Source: Rosistilla ulvae (GTDB lineage: Bacteria; Planctomycetota; Planctomycetia; Pirellulales; Pirellulaceae). Taken from it: 64,000 nt of DNA. The stretch lies in assembly GCF_007741475.1 (NCBI RefSeq), contig NZ_CP036261.1, forward strand, positions 6,883,798 to 6,947,797, given 5' to 3'. Below the pieces are notes generated by a model, which did not search any database, was not told where the DNA came from, and saw nothing but the letters and a program-made list of their open reading frames with translations. Every line of letters starts with the position of its first letter. Position 1 is the first letter of the stretch. This document shows positions 36,787 through 44,821 of this stretch, piece after piece. The translations under genes were made by a program, and so were the position numbers.

Positions 36787-37890
36787 GTGGATCGTTTTCA
36801 ACAGAAAGCTTCGGCTTCGAGAAGTCACAAGCGTCTTGGTTTTACCTTGGTGGAACTGTTGGTCGTGATCGCGATCATCGGCATCCTCGTCGGGCTGTTG
36901 CTGCCCGCCGTCCAAGCGGCTCGCGAAGCGGCTCGGCGGATGCAATGCCAGAACAACATGAAGCAACTTGGGTTGGCGTTGCACAACCACATGGATACCT
37001 ACAACTCCCTGCCACCGGGCTGGGTCAACTACGACGAATCGGCAAACCGGTATAAGACCGGCGGATGGCAACACGGCCAGAATGAAATGGGGTGGCACTG
37101 GCTGGCAATGCTGCTGCCATACGTCGAACAACCCGGGCTGTGGGAGCTGGTGGAAGAATGTGAAGCCGCTCGGCCGACCGGAACTCAGAATCCATGCGAC
37201 CACTGCGAATCGATGGATCCAAACCATTTCGGGCGTGAACAGTTGCCTGCGTTTTCGCGATGCCCATCGGCAGTGACGCTCTCCAAGCAATTCAGCGACG
37301 GCGGCTACGGCCTCGAAGCTCTGGGCAAAGGTAGCAACTATGCTGCCAGCTGGGGATCGGGCAACATGCTCTCCTGGGAAAGCAGTGCCACCCGCGGTGC
37401 ATTTGGCACCTACTACACGACGCAGGAAAAGTTTAACACTCCCGCTGTTTCCAGAGCCGATCGCTACCAGCATTCCAAGGGGATGGGCAGCCAAGACTTT
37501 ATCGATGGCTTGAGCAACACAGTGGCATTGAGCGAGATCATTGGCAGCGACGGGCTGACGGGAACCTCCAGCACCGACATCCGCGGCGTTTGGATGTCGC
37601 CAGCGATGGGAGCCACGATTTTCAGCGCCTTCCTGAATCCCAACTCGCGCGAGCGTGATGTGATCGCCGCCTGCGATGAAACGATCCCAGACGACCGTTT
37701 TCCTCTGTTGGCTTGTACCGAAGAACGCGACACCGAAAACGTCTATGCCGCGGCGAGAAGCTTTCATCCCGGAGGCGTCAACACCGCGATGGCCGATGGA
37801 TCGGTTCGTTTCTTCTCCGAGACCGTCGATAACGTCGCCGTCTGGCGTCCGTTGAACACCGCCCAAAACGGCGAAGTCGTCGCGGAATAA
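36787..37890 (+). CDS. DUF1559 pseudopilin-like protein, copy 2
   Basis: The GTG start gives a 367-residue protein with a basic leader, the pilin-type site and helix '[20 protein letters not shown]', the DUF1559 motif '[19 protein letters not shown]', and the end motif 'HPGGVNTAMADGSVRFFS'. It is longer than copies 1 and 3, mostly in the middle, with a Cys-containing stretch ('NPCDHCESMD', 'SRCPSA'). It is followed after 158 nt by a small lipoprotein and then by a multihaem cytochrome operon on the same strand. A perfect 8-bp hairpin (37924-37943) without a T run lies between them. Function unknown; exposure on the cell surface is inferred. Confidence 0.93.
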   Translation: MDRFQQKASASRSHKRLGFTLVELLVVIAIIGILVGLLLPAVQAAREAARRMQCQNNMKQLGLALHNHMDTYNSLPPGWVNYDESANRYKTGGWQHGQNEMGWHWLAMLLPYVEQPGLWELVEECEAARPTGTQNPCDHCESMDPNHFGREQLPAFSRCPSAVTLSKQFSDGGYGLEALGKGSNYAASWGSGNMLSWESSATRGAFGTYYTTQEKFNTPAVSRADRYQHSKGMGSQDFIDGLSNTVALSEIIGSDGLTGTSSTDIRGVWMSPAMGATIFSAFLNPNSRERDVIAACDETIPDDRFPLLACTEERDTENVYAAARSFHPGGVNTAMADGSVRFFSETVDNVAVWRPLNTAQNGEVVAE

Positions 37891-38048: not shown

Positions 38049-38459
38049 ATGAAAAACGTTAGCCAATTGTTTATCGTTGCTCTGTTGGTCGCTCCCGTCC
38101 TGATCGGCTGCGGTTCAACCGATCCGGTCCAAGTGACCGATGCTCAAAACTTGAATGCTCAAGTCGAAGGCTTGGGCGACGCCGCGGGCGATGAAGCAAG
38201 CTTTGCCAAAGCATTTGTCGCCGGGGCTGCTCCCGAAAATCGCAAAGACTACGGAGCGCGTGGCTTCCAAGTTGTCGGCGATGCGACAGTCGACGGTGAC
38301 AGCGCAACCGTGCCAGTCAAAATCTTCGGCGGTGTCTACAGCACAACCGGAAAAGATGGTGGCAGCAAAAAGCCTTCCGATGCAACCGAGACCGAACAGG
38401 TCTGGACATTGCAGCGAAATGGCGACACTTGGAAGATCAAAGACGCACCGTTGGGCTAG
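38049..38459 (+). CDS. Small lipoprotein downstream of DUF1559 copy 2
   Basis: The 136-residue protein has a lipobox signal ('VALLVAPVLIGCG', Cys near 22). The mature part is Gly/Asp/Ala-rich, with a central 'VVGDATVDGDSATVPVKIFGG' like a small beta-rich domain and the ending 'VWTLQRNGDTWKIKDAPLG', a pattern similar to DUF4878/SnoaL-like lipoproteins in which a Trp-Lys-Ile strand closes the fold. It precedes a TTG-started multihaem cytochrome by 3 nt, so it is the likely first gene of that operon. Function unknown. Confidence 0.78.
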   Translation: MKNVSQLFIVALLVAPVLIGCGSTDPVQVTDAQNLNAQVEGLGDAAGDEASFAKAFVAGAAPENRKDYGARGFQVVGDATVDGDSATVPVKIFGGVYSTTGKDGGSKKPSDATETEQVWTLQRNGDTWKIKDAPLG

Positions 38460-38462
38460 TCG

Positions 38463-39731
38463 TTGAAACGCGAAAAAGTTAGTCCAAAGACGCGGACGGT
38501 TGCAGCGGCGGGTGAAAACGCCTCGCCGCGAATTCGTCCGACGACCAAGATTCCGGCCGCTGCGGCGATCGGAATCTTGTTGGCGTTTGGCGTCGTCGCG
38601 ATCTTTGTGGCCGATGCAATCTGGCCGGTCCCCCCCGTCCAATCGGCCGACGCGTCGGCGGTTGCGTCGACATCCGGATCGCCGGCGGAATCCCCACAAG
38701 CGGCCGCCTGGAAGCGAATGATCGACCAGCATTTTGCCGGCGATGCGGCGTGTGCCAGTTGTCATCCCAAGCAGGCTGCGGCGCAGCGACGCTCGGGACA
38801 CTCTCGCACCGCAGTGGCGATGCTCGAATCGGACTTCGCATCCGAACTGCTGGCGGGCCAGCCCTACCGCGACTCGCGGCGTTCCCAGACGTTTGAGTTC
38901 ACTTCGCACAGCAATCGCTTCATGGTTCGCGACGCCGACGATCCCGATCTGCCAGCGCTGCCGGTCACCTGGCTGCTCGGTTCGGGGACGCATGCTCAGA
39001 CGCCGATCTTCGTCGACCAACAAGCTCAACGCGGGGTGGAAATGCGTTGGTCCTTCCTTGCCAATCGAGACGGGATCGGGCTGACACCGGAACACGAAAA
39101 GTTCGATCAATACGAAGCCAAATCGCTGCAGTGTTACGGTCGGCCGATGGACGCCGGTGATGTTCGCAGCTGCCTTGGTTGCCACACCACCGTCGGCCCG
39201 CCGGCTCAGCTGCCGATTCAAAACGATCTGTATGTCGCCAACGTAGGTTGCGAACGCTGTCACGGGCCGCGGAAGCAGCACGCTTTACTCGCGCATCAGG
39301 GACGCGGCGAAGAATCCAAACCGTTGGTCCAGTATGCATCTGCCGAGGCTTATATCGATGCCTGTGCCCAGTGTCATCGCGACGAGAGTTCGGTCTCGCC
39401 GACGGCGCAGCCGCACGAACTGGTTCGTTTCCAGCCGTATGGTTTGAAACGCAGTCGTTGTTATCTCGAATCGCCCGACAAACTAACCTGTTCGACCTGC
39501 CACGATCCTCACGACACCGTCTCGCACGACCGCACCGTCTACATCCAGCAATGCCAGCAGTGCCATCAACCGGGCCGCGATTCATTGTGCACCGCCAGCC
39601 CCCAAGGGGATTGCATCGATTGTCATATGCCCGCCACCGAGTGGACGGCGGGGATCGCGTTCCATGATCACGAGATCCGAATTCACGAGGCTCTCGCACC
39701 AAAACACTCCACGCCGCAGGTGAAGCCTTGA
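38463..39731 (+). CDS. Membrane-anchored heptahaem c-type cytochrome
   Basis: The 422-residue protein has an N-terminal anchor helix (about 30-52) and seven CxxCH haem c sites: CASCH (about 97), CLGCH (237), CERCH (263), CAQCH (300), CSTCH (343), CQQCH (364) and CIDCH (385). The spacing of the last six resembles the cytochrome c554/NrfB-like multihaem group found widely in planctomycetes. It should lie on the periplasmic face and carry electrons, but its donor and acceptor are not visible. The TTG at 38463 is 3 nt after the lipoprotein stop; its stop overlaps the TTG start of the next gene by 3 nt (ttga), so translation is coupled. Confidence 0.85.
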   Translation: MKREKVSPKTRTVAAAGENASPRIRPTTKIPAAAAIGILLAFGVVAIFVADAIWPVPPVQSADASAVASTSGSPAESPQAAAWKRMIDQHFAGDAACASCHPKQAAAQRRSGHSRTAVAMLESDFASELLAGQPYRDSRRSQTFEFTSHSNRFMVRDADDPDLPALPVTWLLGSGTHAQTPIFVDQQAQRGVEMRWSFLANRDGIGLTPEHEKFDQYEAKSLQCYGRPMDAGDVRSCLGCHTTVGPPAQLPIQNDLYVANVGCERCHGPRKQHALLAHQGRGEESKPLVQYASAEAYIDACAQCHRDESSVSPTAQPHELVRFQPYGLKRSRCYLESPDKLTCSTCHDPHDTVSHDRTVYIQQCQQCHQPGRDSLCTASPQGDCIDCHMPATEWTAGIAFHDHEIRIHEALAPKHSTPQVKP

Positions 39732-40795
39732 GCGCCGAAGTTTCCCCGATGCCCGTGCGATCGCGCGTCGCAGCAGTTCCCGCGGCGCGGGATCAGGCCA
39801 GCGGTTTCCTGTTCTCGCCGCTGATCGATCTGCTGTTCATCGCCAACATCTGCTGGCCGTTGATCCTGTTTATCGATGGTTTCGGCGGCGCGACGACGCA
39901 TCAGAGCCTCACGTTTTGGCAGATCTACTTTATCACCACGCCGCATCGATGGATCACGTTGGTTCTCGTGGGTCTGGACAAAAAGAAGACAGCCGACCGG
40001 CGAGGGCTCTTTATCGGACTGGCGCTAGCGATCGTTGCCGGTTGTTTGTGTCTGCGATTCGGAACCGGCACGCTGTTGTGCCTGGGCGTGATCGATTACA
40101 TCTGGAACGCCTGGCACTTTTCGTCTCAACATCACGGCATCTATCGGATCTACCAGCGTCGACAACCGCAGCATCGCGATAACGGAGCGTCTTGGGGCGA
40201 GAAGGCGTTGTTTCGTGGATTCGTGTTGTATGTGATCGCTCGCGTGGCCGGGTGGGGATGGACCGAGGGACCCTTTCCCGGATCGGATGCCTTCGCGCCG
40301 CTGGATCTGATCGTTGCCGGCATCCCGCTCTACTTCGTGCTGCGGCAGTTGTTCCAGATGCATTCGCTAGCCGCTTCAGGTATCGCCAGCTTTGCCTACC
40401 TGGCCAGCATGATGGGGTTGTTCACCGCGATGTTGTACGCAAGCCATCTGCAAGACAGTCAATTGGTTCTCCGCCTCGCCTTGGCGTCGGCGATCTTCCA
40501 TTCGCTGGAATACCTGGCGATCGTCACCTGGAGCGTGCAGCAGTCGCGAGGCAAGACCGCGAGTGCTGGCGAAGCCCAGCCTGGCGTGTTCGCTTATCTG
40601 GCCGGGATGTGGATGCTGTTCTTGGTCGCGTTTGTAGTGCTGATCGGCGTGGGCAATTACCTGTTGTCACGCGGTTACTTTGAGGTCTGGTTGTTGGTCA
40701 ACATGATCGTTGCCTTTTGGCACTATTGTTTCGACGGCCTGATCTGGAAGTCGCCCAAACGATCCCGCGCGGACCTGGCGGTGGAGGCTGCATGA
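39728..40795 (+). CDS. Polytopic membrane protein, unknown function
   Basis: The 355-residue protein begins with TTG overlapping the cytochrome stop and shows about eight or nine hydrophobic helices, such as 'LIDLLFIANICWPLILFI', 'LALAIVAGCLCLRFGTGTLL' and 'YLAGMWMLFLVAFVVLIG'. Histidines occur in loops and helix ends ('NAWHFSSQHHGIYRIYQ', 'FWHYCFDG'), which could bind haem or metal. Its stop overlaps the next start (ATGA). Position between a multihaem cytochrome and a TPR protein suggests a membrane partner of the cytochrome, but this is inference. I do not recognise the family. Confidence 0.75.
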   Translation: MSAEVSPMPVRSRVAAVPAARDQASGFLFSPLIDLLFIANICWPLILFIDGFGGATTHQSLTFWQIYFITTPHRWITLVLVGLDKKKTADRRGLFIGLALAIVAGCLCLRFGTGTLLCLGVIDYIWNAWHFSSQHHGIYRIYQRRQPQHRDNGASWGEKALFRGFVLYVIARVAGWGWTEGPFPGSDAFAPLDLIVAGIPLYFVLRQLFQMHSLAASGIASFAYLASMMGLFTAMLYASHLQDSQLVLRLALASAIFHSLEYLAIVTWSVQQSRGKTASAGEAQPGVFAYLAGMWMLFLVAFVVLIGVGNYLLSRGYFEVWLLVNMIVAFWHYCFDGLIWKSPKRSRADLAVEAA

Positions 40796-42030
40796 TGTCG
40801 CCGGTTCAACCTGCCGTTAGAATGTTACTCCCCCACGCGGTCGCGTTGCTCGCGGTCGCCTCGTCGGTCGGTCTGCTGTTGCAATGGCGGACGCCAGCCG
40901 GCGATGCGATCCTCGTTTTTGCGCGAGTCGACGTTTTGGTGTGCTCGCTATTTTTGAGTCTTCCGTTGGCGTTGGAGTTACTGCGCCGTGGGCGTTCCGC
41001 TTCGCTGGGGATTAGCGCCGCGGCGATGTTCTGCGGCTGGGGGAGCGCCGTCGCGCTGATGGTTTGGGCCAGCAGTACCCCGCCGCGCGGTGAGATCAGC
41101 GAGTGGAGTCTCGTTGCGATTCGGGGAGCGATCGGTTTGTGTGTGGCTAGCGGTTCGGTTGGTTTTGCGAACCTGGTCGCTCGCCTCGCTGGCGATCGTC
41201 GCAAGCGCGACCAGCCACAGTCGTTTCACGGCGCTATCGAACGCGTCGTTTCGGCGTGGCCGCGTCGGGCGATCTTTGCGGGGCTGTGGATCTTGGTTCC
41301 CGCAGTTTACGCGCACGCGGTCGCCACCGACTTACAGAAAGCGTTGACCGAATCGCTGCAGAACCAGCGGATTGCGTTGGCCGCGCGACAAGCGGATCAA
41401 TTGAGTCAGCTGGCGCCAACGCAAACGATTGACGGGACTCCGCTTGTGACTCTGTTGCCGCAGTTGCAACAGCGACGCACTCAATTGATCGATCAACTGG
41501 CAACCGCGACGGAGCCGACTTCGTTGGGAGAGCTTGCCCAGCAGATCACGACGCTGGTCCAATTGGAACGCCACGACGAAGCGCTGCGGCGGATCGAGCC
41601 GTTGACCCGCGGAGCCAACTTCCATCCGGTGGCCCTCGATTATCAGGGGCTCTGTTTCCAGCGGATGGAGCGGCCCGAAGAGAGCATGGCGGCTTACCGG
41701 CGGTCGCTGGAGTTCTGGATGTCGCAGCCCGATGGCGATGCCAAGCGGTCGGGACTGGTCAGCGGATACAAAGGTGTTGGATTCGCCGCCCGGCGACTGC
41801 AGATGCGATTGCTGGAAGAGCAGGCGTATCAGCAGCTTGTCGAAATCGCACCGACTGGCGAGCATCACTTTCTGTTGGCCCAGTGTTATCGCGAGCATCA
41901 AAAGACGCGGCTGGCGGCCGAGCAATTTAGGGCCGCGATGCAGCAAGATCCAAGCATGCAAAGTCAGATCGAAGCGATCCTGGCGACGCTGTCGATGGAT
42001 CATTTTAGTTGTCTGAGCGTCCCGCGATGA
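40792..42030 (+). CDS. Membrane protein with C-terminal TPR-like repeats
   Basis: From the ATG at 40792 (4-nt overlap with the previous gene) the protein has 412 residues. Four hydrophobic helices cover about 10-190 ('MLLPHAVALLAVASSVGLLL', 'RAIFAGLWILVPAVYAHAV'). The soluble part (about 195-405) has a coiled segment and then TPR-like pairs of helices ('HPVALDYQGLCFQRMERPEE', 'HHFLLAQCYREHQKTRLAAE'). TPR proteins serve as assembly platforms; here it may help assemble or tether the cytochrome. A longer frame from 40717 lies inside the previous gene and is rejected. It closes the operon. Confidence 0.78.
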   Translation: MMSPVQPAVRMLLPHAVALLAVASSVGLLLQWRTPAGDAILVFARVDVLVCSLFLSLPLALELLRRGRSASLGISAAAMFCGWGSAVALMVWASSTPPRGEISEWSLVAIRGAIGLCVASGSVGFANLVARLAGDRRKRDQPQSFHGAIERVVSAWPRRAIFAGLWILVPAVYAHAVATDLQKALTESLQNQRIALAARQADQLSQLAPTQTIDGTPLVTLLPQLQQRRTQLIDQLATATEPTSLGELAQQITTLVQLERHDEALRRIEPLTRGANFHPVALDYQGLCFQRMERPEESMAAYRRSLEFWMSQPDGDAKRSGLVSGYKGVGFAARRLQMRLLEEQAYQQLVEIAPTGEHHFLLAQCYREHQKTRLAAEQFRAAMQQDPSMQSQIEAILATLSMDHFSCLSVPR

Positions 42031-42123: not shown

Positions 42124-42151
42124 TTGACTGTCGCAGGGCCGCTGTTAGAAT
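42124..42151 (+). promoter_or_regulatory. Sigma70-like promoter of the cobalamin riboswitch transcript
   Basis: A -35 box TTGACT (42124-42129) and a -10 box TAGAAT (42146-42151) are separated by 16 nt. Predicted initiation near 42158 falls exactly at the first base-paired position of the riboswitch P1 stem, which supports both calls. Confidence 0.75.
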
Positions 42152-42156
42152 CGACC

Positions 42157-42355
42157 GCGACATGGGTGCCGGGCGTCGACTTGTGGTCCGCTCGGAGAAT
42201 AGGGAAAACGGTGCAAATCCGTTGCGGTCCCGCCGCTGTAACCGGGGACGAGGCTTAACTCACTGCCACTGTGACCGATGCGATCATGAAGATCGCGGTT
42301 GCGGGAAGGCATAAGCCGAGGCTGAACCGGGAGCCAGAAGACCTGCCCAGCTGTC
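42157..42355 (+). promoter_or_regulatory. Cobalamin (B12) riboswitch
   Basis: The stretch has the ordered conserved blocks of the adenosylcobalamin aptamer: 'gaatagggaaaacggtgcaaa' (P3-side block, about 42196-42216), then 'tcccgccgctgtaacc' (about 42228-42243), 'gccact' with 'gcgggaaggc' (L5-side, about 42265 and 42301) and the B12 box 'agccagaagacctgccca' (about 42332-42349). P1 closes by gacatggg (42159-42166) with ccca/tgtc (42346-42349, 42352-42355). The next gene on the strand is the DUF1559 copy 3, 192 nt downstream. I see no convincing intrinsic terminator between them, so the mechanism may be translational or use a weaker hairpin. Such RNAs normally repress B12 synthesis or uptake genes when cobalamin is plentiful. 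Confidence 0.93.
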
Positions 42356-42547
42356 ATCGCACAATAGCGTCGTACCCTCGGGGAACAGGGAGCGGACGTG
42401 ATTTTTCAGACGCGCTCGCGCTGCAACGGCACTGGCCGGCAATCGTGCGAGCGACGAAAGATCTCGATCTTCGCTCATGCTCTGTGCCGGTAGGGGCTGC
42501 GAACCGTAGAGCCACCGTGGCAGTCGGCTCGAAAGATCTTTCCATCC

Positions 42548-43441
42548 ATGAAAATGAACAACACGCGCCGCGCCGGCTTCACGCTGGTCGAACTGCTGGT
42601 CGTGATCGCAATCATCGGCATCCTAGTTGGATTGCTGTTACCCGCCGTGCAACAAGCCCGTGAAGCAGCTCGCCGCATGCAGTGCAAAAACCGACTGAAA
42701 CAGATCGCATTGGCGCTGCATAATTATGCCGACACCTACCGCGAGACGATGATCCCCTACGTCGTCGAAGATCAAGCCCGGATCAATTACTTGGCGACCT
42801 ACTCGGGAGCTCAGGGCAAGGCACAGTTCTGGTTCGGAACCGTCGACTACGACCAACCCGATCCGAACCAACAACTCGATTACACCCAAGGCCCTTTGGC
42901 CCCGTTCATCGAGACCAGCTACACATCGTTCCAATGCCCCGACTTTGGCCCCGGCCAGATGGACACCGTCAAATACGGCTTGCCCGCGTCGGGCTTTGGA
43001 TTCAACGGCTACAACCTCTCGCGGTCCTCGGGGGTCGATTGGTTGCCGCCAACTTACGCCGCGGTCCCCAATCCCGAACCGATGGTCCGCCGTTTTGCCG
43101 AGGTCCGTTCGATGAGTGCAACAGTCGCTTTTGCCGACAGCGCCCAAGTCAAACTTGTCTCCTTCTCGCCGCCAGCTTACAGCTTTGAAGAGAACTGGTT
43201 GTTGGACCCTCCCAGCCACAACTTCCCCAACGTTCACTTCCGCCATCACGGCGCAGCGAACGTTGCCTTCCTGGACGGACACGTCGAATCGCGGCAGCGA
43301 CATTTCAAGATCGATGTCCCCGGCACCAACTACATGTCAGCCGAACAAGCCGCACTAATCGACGAGAAAAAGCTGGGTTATGTCAGCGGCGGACACTTGG
43401 ACGATCCTGCGTTGCAAGACGAACTGTACGATCGCGAGTAG
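42548..43441 (+). CDS. DUF1559 pseudopilin-like protein, copy 3, downstream of a B12 riboswitch
   Basis: The 297-residue protein begins at '[19 protein letters not shown]', with the pilin-type cleavage site and the DUF1559 motif '[19 protein letters not shown]'; the ATG two codons later is the alternative start. The middle is unlike copies 1 and 2 and rich in Tyr, Phe and Pro. The DUF1559 end motif is present as '[18 protein letters not shown]'. It is the first gene after the cobalamin riboswitch and is followed after 58 nt by a small lipoprotein. Surface display and a link to corrinoid supply are inference from position; no corrinoid-binding motif was seen. Confidence 0.93.
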
Positions 43442-43499
43442 GCACGCCAGCCCGCCGAGTTCCTATTCGCACCCAACGCCTTCCCTGGAAGTTCGATCG

Positions 43500-43835
43500 A
43501 TGTCCGCCAAAGTAAACATCCGCCAAGCTGCCGCCTGCCTATTTCTGCTAACTGCAATCGGCTGCGGCGAGACCGCACCGCCGGTCGCCGAGGTCACTCA
43601 ATCGGTCTACGTCGACATCGACACGATGCAAGCGGTTGTCGCCGACACCGTCATGCAAACTCCCGCCGTCCACCCGGTCACCGGCAAACGGACATTGCAA
43701 CCGGCACTCTATTGCCCAAAGTGCCAGCAGTGGCACGCGATCCCATCGGTCGAACAGATCAACCGAAAACCAGGCGCCACCCGCTGCCCCAAGACCGGCG
43801 CCGAAATGACCGCCGACGGCCCTTGGCCCGAATAG
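43500..43835 (+). CDS. Small lipoprotein with Cys-rich C-terminal half, downstream of DUF1559 copy 3
   Basis: From the ATG at 43500 the protein has 111 residues: a lipobox signal ('CLFLLTAIGCG', Cys near 22) and a mature part with 'YCPKCQQWH' and a later Cys ('ATRCPKTGAEM'). The CxxC and the further Cys/His could bind a metal or a corrin, but a two-Cys zinc knuckle is also possible. An upstream extension of the frame overlaps the DUF1559 gene and is not used. It is the second gene after the riboswitch, 58 nt behind copy 3, probably co-transcribed. I know no named family for it. Confidence 0.75.
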   Translation: MSAKVNIRQAAACLFLLTAIGCGETAPPVAEVTQSVYVDIDTMQAVVADTVMQTPAVHPVTGKRTLQPALYCPKCQQWHAIPSVEQINRKPGATRCPKTGAEMTADGPWPE

Positions 43836-43877
43836 CGTTCGGCGGCCAATGGACTGCGAAGCGGCCCCAGAAGGTAG

Positions 43878-44136: not shown

Positions 44137-44430
44137 ATGAGGATCATCGCCCGCAAAACCTTGGTCGAGTTCTGGACGAAATACCCTCGGGCTGAGGAGC
44201 AACTGAAGGCCTGGTATGCAGAAGCCGACGCAGCCAGCTGGACCTCGCCTGCCGACGTCAAAGCCAAGTATGGCAACGCAAGCATCCTCAAGGACGGACG
44301 AGTTGTGTTCAATATCTGCGGCAACGGTTACCGATTGGTCGCCTGGATCAAATACGAGTACTACACCGTCTATATCCGCTTCATTGGAACGCATGCAGAA
44401 TATGACAAAATCGACGCGCAAAAGGTCTGA
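44137..44430 (+). CDS. higB: HigB-type mRNA interferase toxin
   Basis: The 97-residue protein fits the HigB toxin family of the RelE superfamily: N-terminal 'MRIIARKTLVEFW' and 'LKAWYAEADAASWTSPADVKA', the core strand 'VFNICGNGYRLVAWIKYEYYTVYIRFIGTHAEYDKID' (shown here only to locate it near 55-92; key residues Arg65, Tyr and His82 area). HigB cleaves mRNA on the ribosome. Toxin first, antitoxin second and overlapping is the usual higBA order. The start at 44137 matches the family. No Shine-Dalgarno is visible. Confidence 0.93.
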   Translation: MRIIARKTLVEFWTKYPRAEEQLKAWYAEADAASWTSPADVKAKYGNASILKDGRVVFNICGNGYRLVAWIKYEYYTVYIRFIGTHAEYDKIDAQKV

Positions 44431-44821
44431 GCCATTACATCCAAGGCTCATCAAGTCGGCCGCGGAGCATGATCGCGCGCTCGCCCGAGTCGAAGAACTG
44501 TTCACCGCAAAGCCGGGCACAGCCGAAGGCGACGAGCTAGAGCTCTGGTTGCTACTCATCGGCGCTTATGAGAGCAAGGAGTTCCCGATCGATTTGCCCG
44601 ACCCCATCGAAGCGATCCGTTTTCGGATGGAGCAGGGAAACCTTAAGCAAAAAGACCTGGTGCCAATCTTTGGCAGCAAGGGCAAAGTGTCCGAAGTCCT
44701 CAACGGCAAACGAGAGCTTTCGCTGACGATGATTCGAAATCTAGTCAACCAGCTGGGCATTCCCGCTGAAGTCCTGCTGCAGCAGCGAACCGCTAAGATG
44801 TCGCCTTCGCTGAGCGAATGA
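44402..44821 (+). CDS. higA: HigA-type antitoxin (helix-turn-helix)
   Basis: From the ATG at 44402 the protein has 139 residues and overlaps higB by 29 nt in another frame; the ATG at 44393 is the alternative. The C-terminal half contains an XRE-like helix-turn-helix ('QGNLKQKDLVPIFGSKGKVSEVLNGKRELSLTMI' region, about 76-110) with 'IPAEVLL' after it, as in HigA antitoxins that also bind DNA. The N-terminal half would bind the toxin. Upstream frame extension inside higB is unlikely to be translated. Likely binds the palindrome at 44091-44109. Confidence 0.9.
   Translation: MTKSTRKRSEPLHPRLIKSAAEHDRALARVEELFTAKPGTAEGDELELWLLLIGAYESKEFPIDLPDPIEAIRFRMEQGNLKQKDLVPIFGSKGKVSEVLNGKRELSLTMIRNLVNQLGIPAEVLLQQRTAKMSPSLSE

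Follow-up and report, generated by a model that had tools for sequence, protein, structure and literature searches.

The closest described counterpart of the locus analysed here is the B12 uptake system of Bacteroides, in which BtuB and BtuFCD are accompanied by the accessory surface lipoproteins BtuG, BtuH, BtuJ and BtuK (PMC12751083, PMC13398666). DUF4465 proteins bind B12 in vitro, one of the tested members coming from a planctomycete, Mucisphaera calidilacus, and DUF4465 genes lie near TonB-dependent barrels in many genomes (PMC13398666); the words planctomyc, DUF1559 and pilin are absent from the main text of that report. DUF1559 itself is the largest paralogous family in Planctopirus limnophila, with 68 copies of unknown function, two of them essential (PMC10632474), and the family has also been spoken of as solute binding proteins (PMC2754498). 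A cobalamin riboswitch has been reported in Thermogutta terrifontis (PMC5673643). In the parts of the literature covered by our searches we found neither a link between DUF1559 and a riboswitch nor a paper joining cobalamin riboswitches and planctomycetes by those words. The locus and its host, Rosistilla ulvae, resemble the Bacteroides system in riboswitch control, in the presence of envelope proteins alongside BtuF/BtuC/BtuD and in the DUF4465 (BtuJ-type) genes of sister loci. They differ in that no BtuB was found in the host, a prepilin-type DUF1559 protein comes first and the lipoprotein has no significant match in the PDB. The riboswitch itself is ordinary; its place ahead of a DUF1559–lipoprotein unit is not.

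The window is a 64-kb stretch of the R. ulvae genome (7.48 Mb, the host genome in what follows), and coordinates below 64,000 are window positions. A covariance-model search placed a cobalamin riboswitch aptamer (RF00174) at 42147–42364 on the + strand. It scores 104.4 bits (gathering threshold 31.5; E 4.6e-25) and spans model positions 1–189 of 189. This is the sole Rfam match at gathering thresholds within the window, and the aptamer is conserved in four further genomes (G001, G002, G029 and G020). A sigma-70-like promoter, TTGACT-16-TAGAAT (42124–42151, + strand; 10 of 12 matches, TG upstream), ends just 5′ of aptamer P1 and also occurs in two congeners, G001 and G002. Transcription would be expected to start a few bases past 42151, in the first bases of P1, which the covariance-model alignment puts at about 42155. 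Promoter-like sites numbered two between 41900 and 44000, versus 0.6 in shuffles, and in a survey of 73 of the 77 riboswitch sites from the host and related genomes (four with short upstream sequence were dropped) a promoter score of at least 10 adjoined the aptamer at 31 of 73 sites, and was reached at none of the 73 in a control region lying farther 5′. These data bear out the sigma70-like promoter, with a start predicted in P1, and the full set of aptamer blocks that the first-pass annotation had described. The leader or expression platform, from aptamer to start codon, occupies 42365–42547 (+); no terminator-like site was found in it on the + strand, and the fold of 42365–42575 is no better than that of shuffles (z -0.30), with no excess structure. 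The window riboswitch shares with other RF00174 riboswitches a full-length match over the gathering score and a position directly behind a promoter-like site, and differs in preceding a DUF1559 pseudopilin and a lipoprotein rather than btuB, cob/cbi or B12-independent enzymes. Neither the open reading frame list nor the Pfam analysis of both genes revealed a btuB, cob or isoenzyme gene in 42157–43836, in agreement with the earlier reading, and the gene pair it had named, a DUF1559 gene followed by a lipoprotein-like gene with a CxxC...C pattern, was likewise confirmed.

The first gene of the pair (42548–43441, +) encodes a 297-residue pseudopilin-like protein that matches PF07596 with 60.6 bits (cut-off 23.3), the match covering only profile positions 1–32 of 268. 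The end of a type IV prepilin leader and the hydrophobic segment behind it are encoded at 42572–42640 (+), where the N-terminal cleavage/methylation motif exceeds the cut-offs of both PF07963 N_methyl (33.3 bits; cut-off 21.2) and TIGR02532 (28.0; cut-off 16.3). Near the C-terminus (43238–43288, +) stands an H-X9-DG motif that scores 17.4 bits with TIGR04294, just under the cut-off of 19, and of which H233, D243 and G244 are invariant in 25 aligned sequences. Among 24 aligned relatives, 17 share 53–99% identity with it and the other seven 36–47%; for 13 of 14 proteins from other families of the class the figure is 53–68%, and the ectodomain is strongly conserved. The predicted structure was unusable (pLDDT 36). 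Neither this protein nor the lipoprotein matches PF07715 or PF00593, the plug and beta-barrel domains of BtuB-type receptors. We would expect prepilin peptidase to cleave this type IV prepilin-like protein, which would then be assembled into a pseudopilus. It has the prepilin leader and PF07596 N-terminal region in common with the planctomycete DUF1559 paralogues, and differs from them in its strongly conserved ectodomain and in belonging to a separate branch under a B12 riboswitch.

The second gene (43500–43835, +) encodes a predicted lipoprotein of 111 residues with a lipobox-like LTAIGC, recognized by eye, whose cysteine two of 10 aligned sequences (L035, L151) lack. C72, C75 and C96 are invariant in all 10 of these sequences, the window protein included, and the codons from Cys72 to Cys96 (43713–43787, +) would form a putative zinc-ribbon-like knuckle. 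No match was found in Pfam, PF14717 (DUF4465/BtuJ-type) included, or in NCBIfam, and none of significance among PDB sequences. The AlphaFold model shows a small beta fold (pLDDT 78) whose fold matches are weak and mostly zinc fingers; the protein could therefore equally be an assembly partner or a binder. A profile built from 10 sequences and run against 148 class genomes (the class taken as Planctomycetia) gave exactly one match in each of 19. The match in G333 was weak (22 bits) and the other 18 were strong; 17 of the 18 strong copies lie in a cobalamin riboswitch locus: 16 on the same strand and shortly 3′ of a listed riboswitch, and that of G217 by separate confirmation. The exception, in G275 (L266), sits on a 5.5-kb fragment without riboswitch and without DUF1559. 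Three more copies, taken from named records that include one of a Fuerstiella sp., all stand in the order riboswitch–DUF1559–lipoprotein. The family is single-copy and tied to cobalamin riboswitch loci. At L267, the genes that come after the orthologous pair encode Diphthami_syn_2, DUF6580 and a BtuF-like Peripla_BP_2 protein (Pfam).

In the host genome, all three cobalamin riboswitches have DUF1559 as first gene. The unit at 2529748 continues with the genome's only DUF4465 match. That at 7251801 continues with GATase_3/CbiA (cobQ), CobO/BtuR, CobU, Peripla_BP_2 (btuF), FecCD (btuC), ABC_tran (btuD) and CobD_Cbib (cbiB-like), the domains being Pfam assignments and the btu names resting on gene order. 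PF07596 has 109 matches in the host genome, in about 105 genes. By a loose pattern test, 11 of 46 host DUF1559 genes examined are followed by a small lipoprotein gene, about eight convincingly by eye (loci L107–L136 and L270–L289; also 36787–37890 with 38049–38459 in the window), and DUF1559–lipoprotein pairing may be a general module.

We then compared the genes behind cobalamin riboswitches at the level of the order, in 60 genomes including the host, a number of them drafts. Riboswitches occurred in 52 of the 60, at 77 sites with 75 distinct first genes (the second site of G022, below the cut-off, shares its gene, and in G026 the gene caller placed none within 1.5 kb). By Pfam, these first genes comprised 44 DUF1559, 12 TonB receptors, 6 NrdA and 4 DUF4465, with DUF6580 and TonB_C twice each, MetE, CobU, CbiX and Peripla_BP_2 once each and some more. 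The DUF1559 genes start 58–465 nt (median 184) 3′ of the aptamer, by the starts of the gene caller used. Second genes (n=56) included 19 DUF4465 and 13 PEP-CTERM, and every one of the 28 DUF4465 domains, from 24 of the 60 genomes, has a cobalamin riboswitch 0.35–4.7 kb upstream in the same orientation. Some riboswitch–DUF1559 operons run on into btuF/btuC/btuD, cobU/cobO/cobQ or DUF4465 genes. The first-pass annotation had held that its reading would be refuted if relatives carried btuB or cob here; such genes were found in part, 12 riboswitches of relatives having a TonB receptor immediately behind them and the L267 pair a btuF-like gene on its 3′ side, and we take them to support rather than refute a role in B12 uptake.

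Several minor patterns recur in these loci. DUF6580 membrane proteins, a candidate for a small B12 permease of unknown kind, appear at L038, L048, L081, L105, L178, L250, L256, L257, L262 and L267, some adjoining btuF or DUF1559. Members of a methyltransferase-like family and secreted PEP-CTERM proteins are found repeatedly 3′ of DUF1559/DUF4465 (L050, L061, L067, L071, L077, L082, L093). Ribonucleotide reductase genes nrdA and nrdB follow the riboswitch at L036, L040, L046, L052, L058 and L099, with metE between in two. Genes with a TonB C-terminal domain stand directly 3′ of the riboswitch at L055 and L075, in two BtuB-bearing genomes (loci assigned from gene calls), and two riboswitch matches lie near each other within one locus at L048 (175381, 175549), L061 and L075, one of the pair in G022 being below the cut-off.

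At the level of the phylum, 226 of 244 genomes contained a riboswitch match. Gene labels here and in the class survey came from purpose-built profiles, not Pfam, and were assigned to the best 70 sites of a score-ranked list, passing over seven entries and those already seen. Within the class and outside the order, DUF1559 was the first labelled gene at 16 of 18 of these best-scoring sites, and a further 18 top-of-list sites from other families of the class (one entry passed over) had DUF1559 at 13, in one possibly as second gene; the one site in the order, from G267, carried no label. Outside the class, 51 of the best-scoring sites yielded 16 BtuB labels, 3 DUF1559 (one not first) and 23 without label. 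The DUF1559–riboswitch link is thus rare outside the class (3 of 51 sites). Class operons of the form riboswitch–DUF1559–(DUF6580)–(cobU)–btuF–(btuC) are exemplified by L250 and L264.

Phylogenetic trees set many of the riboswitch-linked DUF1559 proteins apart from their paralogues. We built a tree of 71 linked proteins (42 of the 44 that the order survey gave, 18 of the 19 of the phylum survey and 11 of the 13 of the class survey, the remainder being without usable sequence or too far downstream) with 29 host paralogues, and a second tree to which the 20 lowest-scoring paralogues were added (49 in total). The window protein falls in a branch of 38 linked proteins with no host paralogue (SH-aLRT 100), unchanged and with the same support in the second tree, where the linked proteins occupy three branches of 38, 27 and 4 members with support of 100, 78 and 99. 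One single branch for all linked proteins was not rejected (p-AU 0.63), and both trees come from quick searches and contain some long branches.

A profile of 12 planctomycete BtuB-like proteins, of which the one scanned against NCBIfam had as its best match TIGR01779 TonB-B12, under that model's cut-off, found no BtuB in the host genome, the best match being 74 bits to the plug region only. Strong BtuB (at least 400 bits) is present in 16 of the 60 genomes of the order and a riboswitch with DUF1559 as first gene in 36, with both in two (Fisher p 8.6e-6, uncorrected for kinship). The separation is not strict, since two genomes have both (G010 and G025, the latter with a completeness of 78% and a contamination of 6%) and ten have neither as counted; among those ten, DUF1559 stands second behind DUF4465 in G045 and further downstream in G026, and DUF4465 comes first in G011 and G044. 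CbiC/CobH is required for synthesis of the corrin ring. CbiC occurs in 3 of the 60 genomes and the MetH activation domain in all 60, suggesting that the majority would depend on corrinoid import, although many of the genomes are drafts; the host has the MetH B12 activation domain and no CbiC match.

Taken as a whole, the locus is probably best explained as a riboswitch-controlled two-gene envelope module, with a DUF1559 pseudopilin in the position that BtuB usually takes. That the pair belongs to the acquisition of B12 or other corrinoids we regard as highly probable; whether it performs a pilin-type capture or transfer step is, in our estimate, an evenly balanced matter. The first-pass annotation had assigned the pair to corrinoid capture at the cell surface in the role of BtuB. 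The acquisition context it proposed is upheld by the btuF/C/D, cob and DUF4465 neighbours, by the near-confinement of the lipoprotein to such loci and by the absence of BtuB from most genomes with riboswitch–DUF1559 units; capture by these two proteins themselves is our inference, the DUF1559 model being unusable and the lipoprotein model giving weak matches to zinc-finger-type folds. By analogy with the riboswitch class, the leader would permit expression of the pair when B12 is scarce, and when B12 is plentiful the aptamer would bind it and expression would drop. The DUF1559 protein, once processed by prepilin peptidase, would be built into an envelope pseudopilus or pilus-type structure, with the lipoprotein as its dedicated partner. 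Presumably by binding B12 or other corrinoids and transferring them across the outer membrane, the pair would carry them from the surface to a BtuF/BtuC/BtuD-type importer encoded elsewhere in the host genome under another riboswitch–DUF1559 unit, and so would do the step performed by BtuB–TonB in other bacteria. We propose this uptake mechanism because of the recurring link with btuF, cobU and DUF4465 and because of the lack of BtuB.

The main alternative casts the DUF1559 protein as a cargo-specific pseudopilin of a secretion machine: it would help to export or display a neighbouring surface protein linked to B12 (the lipoprotein in this locus, DUF4465 in others) and would not itself handle corrinoid. 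Its N-terminus is indeed GspG-like (NCBIfam), the neighbours are often secreted, as the 19 DUF4465 and 13 PEP-CTERM proteins among the 56 second genes illustrate, and small lipoproteins adjoin some other host DUF1559 genes as well (the 11 of 46 by the loose test, with about eight convincing). However, some units have no adjoining surface protein and lead straight to cobQ–cobO–cobU–btuF–btuC or btuF–btuC. A DUF1559 gene directly before cobQ or btuF has been kept without cargo, which speaks against export as the only role, and we consider this explanation unlikely.

A role of the lipoprotein and DUF1559 protein in cobalt or zinc handling tied to B12 status, instead of corrinoid uptake, would account for the invariant CxxC...C of the lipoprotein and its zinc-finger-type fold matches, and B12 riboswitches have been reported to precede some cobalt or nickel transporters (PMC2667541). 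With CbiC in only 3 of 60 genomes, however, most of these organisms would need little cobalt for corrin synthesis, and the genes next to the sister and orthologous units belong to corrinoid uptake and salvage, making this reading very improbable. Less probable still is that the pair takes part in a response substituting for a B12-dependent process, in the manner of NrdA and MetE: these enzymes account for six and one of the 75 first genes, but no enzyme match was found in either protein of the pair (Pfam, NCBIfam) and the DUF1559 label is absent from the six nrd operons. Chance placement, conceivable in a genome with about 105 DUF1559 genes, is ruled out at this level by the 44 of 75 first genes, which have a naive binomial probability near 1e-56 (105 of about 5900 genes, the gene number being assumed and relatedness ignored), and by the linked proteins forming their own branches.

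Riboswitch-controlled uptake by the pair would have consequences beyond this locus. The pattern points to an undescribed route of B12 uptake and bears on the vitamin supply of planctomycetes that are not expected to make the corrin ring, keep a B12-dependent methionine synthase and have no BtuB that we could find. For one part of the DUF1559 family the riboswitch names the metabolite, so that function becomes directly testable with B12. We tentatively extend this to the possibility that planctomycetes of the class do without TonB-dependent receptors for corrinoids and move them across the outer membrane by DUF1559 pseudopilins, each specific for its substrate, together with partner lipoproteins. 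If that were true, the large DUF1559 family would consist of capture pilins for different solutes, and the branch under B12 control would be the first whose solute is known.

On the 3′ side of the pair in the window, 44137–44821 (+) encodes a HigB-like toxin (PF09907, 111.7 bits) and a protein with sub-threshold helix-turn-helix matches; the toxin is absent at this place from the gene calls of the congeners G001 and G002 and may therefore be a recent insertion. On the 5′ side of the riboswitch, 38049–42030 (+) forms an operon-like run of genes for a lipoprotein-like protein, a multihaem cytochrome c (PF14537, PF13435), a membrane-like protein without Pfam match and a TPR protein.
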